From: Leptolyngbya sp. FACHB-8
Lineage (GTDB): Bacteria > Cyanobacteriota > Cyanobacteriia > Elainellales > Elainellaceae
NCBI RefSeq assembly: GCF_014695575.1
Contig: NZ_JACJOO010000075.1
Coordinates: 62,001 to 126,000 of the forward strand
Length of the DNA: 64,000 bases
Reading direction: 5' to 3'
The notes under the pieces are model-generated. The model was not told the origin of the DNA. It was given only the letters and a program-made list of their open reading frames with translations, and ran no database searches. Shown one piece after another: positions 15,005 through 58,756 of this stretch. Made by a program: the position numbers and the translations under genes. Numbering within the stretch: position 1 is the first letter of the stretch; each line of letters begins with the position of its first letter.

Positions 15005-15039
15005 AATGGCAAGATGAACTCACCAACCCGGTGATATAG

Positions 15040-15132
15040 CGTTACATCATCTAGTTAGGGCAGTTTATTTTTGAAAAGCTGGGCTCCGCCCAGCTTTTCA
15101 AAAATAAACTGCCTGGTTCTAAGCGTGTAACG
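15040..15132. repeat. Palindromic element, family F, copy 1
   Basis: A 55-bp hairpin (15059-15113) with about 25-base arms ends in GAAAAGCTGGG/CCCAGCTTTTC and is flanked by inverted ends beginning CGTTACA. Related hairpins with a GAAAAGC/GCTTTTC core lie at 16538 and 27314. Confidence 0.7.
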
Positions 15133-16404: not shown

Positions 16405-16582
16405 AGATTATTTTAACCTGAGTTCGGGTTAAGGGTGTTTTCGAGTACCGCGCGTTGCGCGGCACTCGAAAACACTCATTTTGGCGTGCGCTTTGCGCAC
16501 GCCAAAATGAGCACTTCAGCTTATCCCGAACTGAGGTTATTTTAGAGAAGCCACGCTCAGCGCAGCTTTTCTAAAATAATCT
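16405..16582. repeat. Family F hairpin split by a family A element
   Basis: The left arm of a hairpin (16405-16414 plus 16544-16551) pairs with the right arm (16565-16582) only if the family A copy at 16415-16536 and one TTATTTT are removed. The rebuilt arms are 18 bases long with one mismatch. This is a nested insertion. Confidence 0.82.
16415..16536 (+). repeat. Palindromic element, family A, copy 2 (7-bp target duplication)
   Basis: It has the same ends and two hairpins as the copy at 8460, with TTATTTT on both sides (16408-16414 and 16537-16543). Compared with copy 1, the second hairpin changes CAATTTGG/CCAAATTG to CATTTTGG/CCAAAATG, so both arms changed together. Confidence 0.9.
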
Positions 16583-45912: not shown

Positions 45913-46002
45913 ATTAGTTCGGACAGTTTTTCTGAAACCATTGATTTTGCGTGCGCTTCGCGCACGCAAAATCAATGGTTTCAGAAAAACTGTCCAGAGT
46001 AT
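45913..46002 (+). repeat. Palindromic element, family C, copy 1 (90 bp)
   Basis: ATTAGTTCGGACAG (left) and CTGTCCAGAGTAT (right) bound a near-perfect hairpin of about 70 bp. It equals the copy at 58667-58756 in length; a stem pair differs (CCATTG/CAATGG here, CCCTTG/CAAGGG there). Flanking duplication is not clear in this copy. Confidence 0.85.
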
Positions 46003-46100: not shown

Positions 46101-47660
46101 ATGACATTACTAAGTACTGCAGTTGAGCCCGTTGCCATCGAAGAAAATCTGAAGCAGTTTTTATTGGTAATTTCTGCGGCCCTGGTAGTTGCAACCCTAT
46201 CCCAAATCGTGCCCTGGCTGCAGAAGGTACCTTACACACTAATGCTGGTCTTAACAGGAATGGGATTAGCCCTGTTGGATGTGCGCTTCTTCACTCCATC
46301 ACCTGAATTAATTCTGTGGATTTTTCTACCTCCCCTCTTGTTCGAAGCAGCGTGGAATCTTAACTGGGATGACTTAAAGCGCCATCTCTTGCCGATTACC
46401 CTTTTTGTTACCATCGGCGTTGCGCTTACTATCCTGGGTATTGCCCTTCCTCTAGCCCAATGGAGCGGCATCAGCCTGCCTGTTGCCCTGTTAATTGGTG
46501 CTTGTCTGGCGGCTACTGATCCCGTCTCCGTCAGTGCCCTACTCCGGGAACTCGGTGCCCCTCCACGATTAAAAGCTCTGGTGGAAGGCGAAAGTATGTT
46601 CAACGATGGTACTGCCGTGGTCGCCTTCGGGTTGATTATTGGCATCGCCTTGGGAACCGACAGCTTTGATCCTCAACGGTTAACGGTCGATGTTCTGACA
46701 GTAGTGGGAGTGGGCCTACTGGTGGGGTTGTTGTTAGGCTTTGGTATTTCCTATTTAACGCAACGGTTCGACCTACCTCTGGTGGAACAATCCCTGACGC
46801 TCGTTTCAGCTTACTCGGCTTATCTGATTGCCGAAAGTCTAGGAGGCTCTGGGGTGATTGGTACAGTTACCACCGGGTTGATCCTCGGCAATTTTGGCTC
46901 TCGCATTGGGATGAACCCCCGCACCCGCATCGCTGTCAGCGAATTCTGGGAATTTGTGGCGTTTTTCACGAACTCCATTTTATTTTTGCTAATTGGTGAC
47001 CAGTTTCATCCGGTCAATAATCGCAGTGAGCTTGCCTTAATTGGTCTGGCCTTTGTAGCTGTTCTAATCACTCGGGCCATTGGCATCTTTGGCTTAACTT
47101 TCTTGAGCAATCGGCTCACCCAGTTAGACATCGACCTCAGCACGCAAACGATGCTCTGGTGGAGTGGCCTGCGCGGCGGTGTATCCCTTGCCCTCGCCCT
47201 GAGCGTTCCTGCTGATCTACCAGAACGCCAAGCTATTTTGACAGCAGTTTTTGGGGTTGTGTTTTTCACAACACTGCTGCAGGGCTCCACAGCTAAGTTT
47301 TTACTGGAAGCGTTGCACTTGGCAGAATCTAGCCCATTACGCGATCGTTATTTAGAAATCCTTTCCCGCCAAGCTGCCCTGTATCGCATTCTCAACTATT
47401 TACAGCAACCTGAATCCAAAGTTGGTGTTGAGCTGGTCATTCATCAAGCCAAGGAAGCTGAAATCAGACAACAACTCGAAACTCTACAAGTAGAAGGCAG
47501 CAAGCTTTGTCAGGAAGACCCAGAGCTCCTGGAAGTTGGGGCAAAACAGCTTCAGCAGGAGCTGTTTGCGATAGAGACCGCAACTTATACAGAATTCGTG
47601 CGATCGGGCCGCATTAACCAGGAGTTACCTGGATTACTGGACCCAATCCATCATCATTAG
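46101..47660 (+). CDS. CPA1-family Na+/H+ antiporter (NhaP type)
   Basis: A 519-residue cation/proton antiporter with about twelve membrane segments (about residues 20-410) and a cytoplasmic C-terminal domain of about 100 residues. The ion-binding motif ATDPVSVSAL (about residues 141-150) and GESMFNDGTAVVAF (about 163-176) are intact, including the key Asp residues. It should exchange Na+ (or K+) for H+ and help pH or salt balance. It stands alone between palindromic elements. Confidence 0.93.
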   Translation: MTLLSTAVEPVAIEENLKQFLLVISAALVVATLSQIVPWLQKVPYTLMLVLTGMGLALLDVRFFTPSPELILWIFLPPLLFEAAWNLNWDDLKRHLLPITLFVTIGVALTILGIALPLAQWSGISLPVALLIGACLAATDPVSVSALLRELGAPPRLKALVEGESMFNDGTAVVAFGLIIGIALGTDSFDPQRLTVDVLTVVGVGLLVGLLLGFGISYLTQRFDLPLVEQSLTLVSAYSAYLIAESLGGSGVIGTVTTGLILGNFGSRIGMNPRTRIAVSEFWEFVAFFTNSILFLLIGDQFHPVNNRSELALIGLAFVAVLITRAIGIFGLTFLSNRLTQLDIDLSTQTMLWWSGLRGGVSLALALSVPADLPERQAILTAVFGVVFFTTLLQGSTAKFLLEALHLAESSPLRDRYLEILSRQAALYRILNYLQQPESKVGVELVIHQAKEAEIRQQLETLQVEGSKLCQEDPELLEVGAKQLQQELFAIETATYTEFVRSGRINQELPGLLDPIHHH

Positions 47661-47677: not shown

Positions 47678-47901
47678 CTAGTATTGCATGGGGGAAATCA
47701 ACCTATGTTTAGTGGAGTAGGGTGTTTCACACTCCACTAAACATAACCTCAGTTCGGGATAAGCTGAAGTGCTCATTTTGGCGTGCGCAAAGCGCACGCC
47801 AAAATGAGCGTTTTCGAGTGCCGCGCAACGCGCGGCACTCGAAAACGCCCTTAACCCGAACTCAGGTTAAACATAGGCAACCTTAAGACCCTAAGCACTA
47901 G
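47678..47901. repeat. Family H element split by a family A element
   Basis: CTAG (47678) to CTAG (47898) with worn family H flanks. The hairpin ACCTATGTTTAGTGGAGT/ACTCCACTAAACATAGG is interrupted in its right arm after AAACAT by the family A copy at 47745-47867. Removing the insert and one TAAACAT restores the pairing fully. Confidence 0.88.
47745..47867 (-). repeat. Palindromic element, family A, copy 3 (7-bp target duplication)
   Basis: It is in reverse orientation (AACCTCAGTTCGGG to CCCGAACTCAGG) with TAAACAT at 47738-47744 and 47868-47874. Its first hairpin reads GCGTTTTCGAG/CTCGAAAACGC where copy 1 has GTGTTTTCGAG/CTCGAAAACAC, a paired change. Confidence 0.9.
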
Positions 47902-48313: not shown

Positions 48314-49141
48314 ATGAAATTAAATCACGTGCCTGAATCGGCCTTACAACAAGAGCCTGCAAAGTGGATTGAGCGGTTCGCCCGCTTTGGTTATGCTGCT
48401 AAAGGAATCGTTTACATACTTGTAGGTATCCTGGCTTTTCAGGCGGCTTTTCATTGGGGAGGAAAAGTTACCAACTCTCAGGGAGCCCTGCAAACGGTAG
48501 CGACTCAGCCCTTCGGTCGTATATTACTGTTCTTAGTTGCCCTTGGGTTAATTGGGTACGTTGTCTGGCAAGTAGTTCAAACTATTTGGGACCCAGAACA
48601 TAATGACAGGGGAGCAGGGGCGATCGCAAGACGCTTTTCTTACGTCATCAGTGGCTTGATTTATGCAAGCTTAACCTGGTTTGCTCTTCGAGTTTCTTTG
48701 GGCAATCCAGCGAGTAGTGGAGGAGGCTCCAGCCAACAAGCTGCAACACTTTTATCCAAACCCTTTGGACAGTGGCTACTAGGATTAATTGGTGTTGCTA
48801 TTATCAGCTATGGATTTTATTGCTTTTACCGGGCTTTCACGCGGCAATTTCAGCGGCGGCTTAAGCTCGACCAAATGAGCCAGACAACGCAGAAGTGGGT
48901 TACACGCATTTCTCGCTTCGGTTTATTTGCGAAAGGAATTGTGGCCCTTGTCATTGGCTATTTTGTGATTCTGGCAGCCCGAGCAGCAGATCCCAATCAA
49001 ATCCGTGACACAGAAGGGGCATTACAAGCTATTCAACAACAACCTCTGGGTGCCTATCTCATGGGCATTACAGCTCTGGGCCTAATCGCTTATGGTGTGT
49101 TTATGGAAACCCAGGCTCGATATCGCAAAATCTCACCCTGA
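48314..49141 (+). CDS. DUF1206 membrane protein
   Basis: A 275-residue protein made of three DUF1206 units, each a two-segment membrane hairpin with the start pattern ARFGYAAKGIVYILVG (about residues 21-36), then a second near 107 and a third near 200 (SRFGLFAKGIVALVIG). The function of the family is not known. The start ATG follows an AT-rich leader. It is alone in its direction, with a 730-bp gap after it. Confidence 0.88.
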   Translation: MKLNHVPESALQQEPAKWIERFARFGYAAKGIVYILVGILAFQAAFHWGGKVTNSQGALQTVATQPFGRILLFLVALGLIGYVVWQVVQTIWDPEHNDRGAGAIARRFSYVISGLIYASLTWFALRVSLGNPASSGGGSSQQAATLLSKPFGQWLLGLIGVAIISYGFYCFYRAFTRQFQRRLKLDQMSQTTQKWVTRISRFGLFAKGIVALVIGYFVILAARAADPNQIRDTEGALQAIQQQPLGAYLMGITALGLIAYGVFMETQARYRKISP

Positions 49142-58666: not shown

Positions 58667-58756
58667 ATACTCTGGACAGTTTTTCTGAAACCCTTGATTT
58701 TGCGTGCGCGAAGCGCACGCAAAATCAAGGGTTTCAGAAAAACTGTCCGAACTAAT
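58667..58756 (-). repeat. Palindromic element, family C, copy 2 (90 bp, 9-bp target duplication)
   Basis: ATACTCTGGACAG to CTGTCCGAACTAAT. GTTATATCA is repeated exactly at 58658-58666 and 58757-58765. The hairpin arms are TCTGAAACCCTTGATTTTGC and complement. The sequence equals the copy at 45913 in reverse orientation except for a paired stem change. Confidence 0.92.

Follow-up and report, generated by a model that had tools for sequence, protein, structure and literature searches.

Structure of the locus

The window analysed here, a stretch of 64,000 nucleotides from the genome of Leptolyngbya sp. FACHB-8, contains two nested palindromic repeats at positions 47678-47901. They are located between a sodium/proton exchanger (antiporter) gene upstream (46101-47660, Pfam PF00999) and a DUF1206 gene downstream (48314-49141), and all their features are given on the plus strand. 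The outer repeat, of family H, is split in two. Its left part (47678..47745), with a CTAG boundary, the left flank, the left arm (47702-47718), the loop and the right arm up to the insertion, was delimited by its inverted repeat, the alignment of H copies and the fold. The remainder (47876..47901) holds the final 2 bp of the right arm, the right flank and a CTAG boundary, and was identified by the homology with another H copy (L047:12111-12203), which crosses the junction. As now interrupted, the H arms (47704-47718 and 47731-47745, 15 nt each) pair perfectly. Folding of 47678-47901 as single-stranded DNA gave −75.5 kcal/mol versus −27.6 (sd 3.3) for shuffled sequences (z = −14.8), so that the hairpins are not a product of chance. 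A search of Rfam yielded no match above the gathering score.

The inner repeat is a family A element of 122 nt (47746..47867) with the ends ACCTCAGTTCGGGATAAG and CTTAACCCGAACTCAGGT, shared with IS982 elements. Its borders, ACCTCAG...CTCAGGT, were fixed by comparison of its many copies (112 in the sample described below). An earlier note on this DNA had rightly placed the copy within the right arm of H, at 47745-47867; the element starts one base later. The same note described TAAACAT on both sides of A. Comparison of the A copies confirmed a target-site duplication and extended it by one A to 8 bp, TAAACATA, with the left copy inside the right arm of H (47738..47745) and the right copy directly behind the element (47868..47875). 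Inside A, two perfect hairpins were delineated by inverted repeats and covariation, hairpin 1 at 47771..47809 (loop AAA at 47789-47791) and hairpin 2 at 47808..47848 (loop AAC at 47827-47829).

Removal of A together with one TAAACATA results in a perfectly paired 17-bp stem closed by a 12-nt loop (CCTATGTTTAGTGGAGT / ACTCCACTAAACATAGG), and excision thus restores the H arm as had been claimed. The insertion point lies towards the arm's outer end, with only GG beyond the duplication, so the restored pairing alone amounts to just 2 bp of extra evidence (from 15 to 17 bp).

Family A across the genome

To describe the family, the window's genome was sampled in 80 stretches totalling 832,255 bases, picked mostly around A copies and with one duplicate stretch dropped. 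They contained 112 distinct full A copies, of which 105 are 122 nt long. An exact flanking duplication of at least 6 nt was present at 90 of the 112 copies and none at the remaining 22, compared with 1.7 duplications on average, and never more than 6, when the left and right flanks of the 112 copies were paired at random (200 shuffles). These duplications, with the one at the present locus, bear out the earlier suggestion that family A moves. Their length varies (6 nt in 62 copies, 7 nt in 22, 8 nt in four, 10 nt and 13 nt in one each), whereas the T...A borders are constant: T is the first base and A the last in 83 of the 89 duplications that are 6-10 nt long. A TA dinucleotide was found at the start in 72 of these 89, at the end in 64 and on both sides in 48.

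Genome-wide searches with the A end patterns, which are nearly palindromic, gave 407 and 480 matches, and 0 with reversed control patterns. With two mismatches permitted, either end pattern may hit the opposite end as well, which does happen with four, so these figures are not copy counts, and the number of A copies is roughly 200-240. The copies diverge from their own consensus by 6.7% on average and several are identical to one another. No match to A was obtained in the plasmid collection searched. The A copies at L014:5358-5479 and L014:5513-5634 share their orientation and are only about 33 bp apart. Two further genera of the taxonomic family also carry A-like elements, with identities to A of 78-80% in G016 and 71-76% in G013 (L129, L130 and others).

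Relationship with IS982

The end pattern ACSTSARTTCGGGWTAAG is present in 99 of 242 sampled genomes of the class. Full elements were traced through paired ends approximately 970 bp apart, and 11 IS982 loci were fetched. Nine of these carry both A-like ACSTSARTTCGGGWTAAG ends (three mismatches or fewer) at a distance of 962-992 bp. Exact duplications flank three of the nine full elements (TACTTA in L157, TAGCTA in L212 and again in L217) and six have none; the L212 element originates from the same genus as the window's genome. Four transposases were scanned. With NF033520 of the IS982 family (cut-off 130), three of them reached 250.8, 261.5 and 266.1 bits, and these three matched PF13612. The remaining one scored 148.8 bits on NF033520; it is a partial frame in L154 and belongs to a copy with in-frame stops. 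Among the 242 genomes, an IS982 transposase was detected (E value 1e-20) in 62 of the 99 that have A-type ends versus 16 of the 143 that lack them, an association with a Fisher p of 2e-17 that is inflated by the shared ancestry of the genomes.

In the window's own genome, G000, neither a protein search nor a family search detected an IS982 transposase; the sensitivity of the latter was a match at 1e-5 in 16 of 18 genomes, above the cut-off in 11 of 18. Of the 19 genomes with at least 20 end matches, six lack an IS982 transposase at 1e-20, which indicates that orphan MITE families are not rare in this group.

The short A-like elements of G026 and G056 were considered as the parent insertion sequence and rejected, as they have no transposase. 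Those of G026 (L131, L136, L139 and L142) measure about 100 bp and combine the ends of A with a different interior, and no long perfect hairpins were seen by eye in L131 and L136. At L217 (G154), nine IS982 copies were observed, all alike, with one TAG in the transposase frame; they possibly represent a frameshifted or dead lineage that nonetheless spread.

Family A has the short length of a MITE and no transposase gene, for which its 122 nt leave no room. Its terminal inverted repeats are held in common with an autonomous insertion sequence (ACSTSARTTCGGGWTAAG ends at 9 of the 11 IS982 loci), and its target duplications are of the parental type (90 of 112 copies, mostly TAnnTA-like; three of nine for IS982). 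The parent insertion sequence, which may be expected in the same genome, was not found among the proteins of G000 (0 IS982 transposases). MITEs with no matching insertion sequence are described in part of PMC3542288, so that a parent in the same genome is not a strict requirement for the class. Membership of the IS982 family proper requires a transposase of its own; the larger elements that bear these ends encode one, and A does not. The same ends on complete IS982 elements, combined with the TAnnTA duplications, lead to the conclusion that A is an IS982-derived MITE.

It is improbable that this MITE with IS982 ends was amplified in trans by a different transposase, such as an IS5-type DDE enzyme. 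Such an enzyme would account for several A copies being identical while no IS982 transposase was found in this genome. However, the TAnnTA preference of A is the same as that of the IS982 elements bearing these ends, and a congener retains an intact IS982 (L212), which makes recent loss a simple explanation. For an IS982-derived A, the missing parent transposase may have been lost, may lie in an assembly gap or may have acted from elsewhere.

Insertion in hairpin arms

Twelve of the 112 A copies are situated within a hairpin arm, compared with 15 of 364 random TAnnTA sites in the same stretches (Fisher p = 0.017), a small excess that intergenic crowding can explain. The first cases had suggested a strict preference of A for the right arm; this was ruled out by the even use of left and right arms (six copies each). 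The window itself holds a second nested copy on the minus strand (16416-16537), also in a hairpin arm and flanked by the duplication TAAAATA.

REP and REPIN elements have a RAYT partner and are not known to make target duplications. It is very improbable that A belongs to this class and owes its spread to a hairpin-recognising RAYT transposase (HUH, single-strand). The short, palindromic and abundant nature of A and its higher frequency in hairpin arms than at random TAnnTA sites would suit such an origin, but A possesses terminal inverted repeats and target duplications of 6-10 bp, 90 of the 112 copies are flanked by duplications, A shares its ends with the DDE-type IS982, and the two hairpin arms are used evenly.

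Family H and uninterrupted sites

When A and one duplication copy were left out, the joined H site could be aligned through the junction with L047:12111-12203, with 74 of 95 columns identical (78%). This copy sits 28 kb off on the same contig and reads CACTAAACATAGGCAAACTTAAGA uninterrupted, which makes it a paralogous empty site. It is stronger support for nesting than the pairing of the arms. The order of events put forward in the earlier note, first H and later A, is upheld by this uninterrupted paralogue in the same genome, in which TAAACATAGG occurs once, and by the target duplication around A.

An orthologous empty site was not found among 78 related antiporter loci (L050-L127), in which the coding end of the antiporter was matched five times, the intergenic region 0 times and the DUF1206 neighbour 0 times; the empty site presented here is therefore a paralogue. 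In the nearest genomes (L069, L070, L071 and L050, antiporter 78-81% identical) the DNA past the gene is unrelated, and in the congener G001 the antiporter itself is merely 53% identical.

The comparison covered 49 A copies with recognisable ends, which were joined in the same way and compared with 39 stretches and the window. Apart from hits to A or to a copy's own locus, related uninterrupted sites were obtained for other copies, for example L047:12228-12311 for the copy in L017 and L048:1352-1398 for that in L045. The second nested copy of the window (16416-16537) has uninterrupted relatives at 15032-15119 of the window and at L015:708-790.

With the intact H paralogue as query, 30 matches were found in the genome, mostly 71-89% identical, and the aligned copies display a central hairpin, often with CTAGTA...TACTAG ends. 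The end motif CTAGTANNCTGNGGC occurs 189 times in G000 (control 0), frequently in pairs that face each other and extend over about 100 nt. H is thus a CTAG-bounded repeat family in its own right. H copies are more diverged than A copies, in agreement with H being the older of the two at this locus.

The notion that A and H are one composite element, moved or evolved jointly and with the nesting as its native structure, draws on their adjoining at this locus and is almost certainly wrong, being refuted already by A-free H copies in the same genome (L047:12111-12203 and others) and by H-free A copies, the 112 full copies of A lying in distinct flanks.

Stem covariation and loop orientation

Covariation was assessed in 54 distinct A copies, picked by eye for diversity from 95 distinct 122-nt sequences. 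The stems of A contain 19 pairs with two-sided changes, covering 125 cells, versus 6.2 pairs and 44.5 cells in shuffles. Pairing is maintained in 97.3% of the cells, and slid controls did not exceed 8 pairs and 9 cells.

Both loops occur in two orientations. In the 105 copies scored, loop 1 reads AAA in 43 and TTT in 21, GAC in 12 and GTC in four; loop 2 reads AAC in 52 and GTT in 19, GAA in 12 and TTC in nine. In 77 pairs of A copies the sequence outside the loops is identical; inversion affects loop 1 in 31 of these pairs, loop 2 in 24 and neither loop in 30. Two of the five multi-copy haplotypes hold both orientations, for each loop, which sets a lower bound on inversion and implies that the many inverted pairs are not independent events. 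Another perfect palindrome, with a 36-bp stem, is present twice in the window (45921-45995 and 58674-58748) with the inverted loops TTC and GAA.

Passages of PMC8604942 and PMC8794818 report that template switching between the arms of inverted repeats homogenises the arms and inverts the spacer. The loops in both orientations and the covariation of the stems fit such template switching, with gene conversion between copies and old founder lineages as alternatives. We lean slightly towards the view that the A hairpins are continually rewritten by template switching during replication, by which changes in one arm would be copied to the other, the stems would stay perfect and the 3-nt loops would flip.

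Discussion

We consider A to be an IS982-derived MITE, mobilised into the arm of an older H hairpin by an IS982-type transposase, with a probability of about 0.92. The duplication, the common ends, the common target preference and the intact H paralogue can be read directly at the sequence level, and an IS982 transposase would have been the agent of the insertion. In this reading, the non-autonomous A is composed of both ends of an insertion sequence of the IS982 family, set around two long perfect hairpins. An IS982-type DDE transposase would bind its ACCTCAG.../...CTCAGGT ends and place the element of 122 bp in a target of the form T(A)n(T)A, here within the right arm of the older, CTAG-bounded H. 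Filling of the gaps would then duplicate the target, which is usually TAnnTA and is TAAACATA at this locus. The nested insertion of A in H is an ordinary event, and the transposon that made it belongs to a known family.

The IS982 family is described in passages of PMC7335449 as having 5′-AC ends, a size of about 1 kb and direct repeats of variable length, with listed values from 0 to 10 bp. A has the same 5′-AC ends and likewise direct repeats of varying length, and its same-ended parents are about 1 kb long with a single DDE transposase. A itself counts 122 nt, has no transposase gene and contains two internal hairpins. The TA...TA anchoring seen in the duplications of A is absent from those IS982 passages.

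MITECca01, an IS982-derived MITE of Cardinium, is about 240 bp long and its parental IS982 is still in the genome, according to a section of PMC9769881. By that account it resembles A as a short, non-autonomous element with IS982 inverted repeats and many copies, some of them inside other mobile elements, and differs in its length and in the presence of the parent, no parent having been detected for the 122-nt A. The MITEs of Anabaena sp. 90 have three sets of inverted repeats and no matching insertion sequence in the genome, as described in part of PMC3542288. By this description they are like A in being cyanobacterial, in their three inverted-repeat sets and in lacking a matching insertion sequence; they are set apart by a parent that is not known, while the ends of A match IS982. 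The reference list of PMC10969869 includes work on Nezha and on the Microcystis MITEs.

Nezha and the Microcystis MITEs are cyanobacterial MITEs with many copies, and by description alone they are comparable to A in this respect. A literature search on IS982 MITEs, covering an open library, returned no description of family A.

The assignment traces an abundant hairpin repeat of this cyanobacterial lineage to its transposon family and explains the borders of the repeat and its choice of target. The nesting provides an internal clock, in which H is older than A. If the hairpins are indeed rewritten by template switching, A would be a natural replicate record, with at least 105 oriented copies, of how loops invert and arms are homogenised in a bacterium. 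As an orphan family with some 200 copies or more, no detected transposase and loops that flip, A is a usable model for how palindromic repeats outlast their parent and yet remain perfect.
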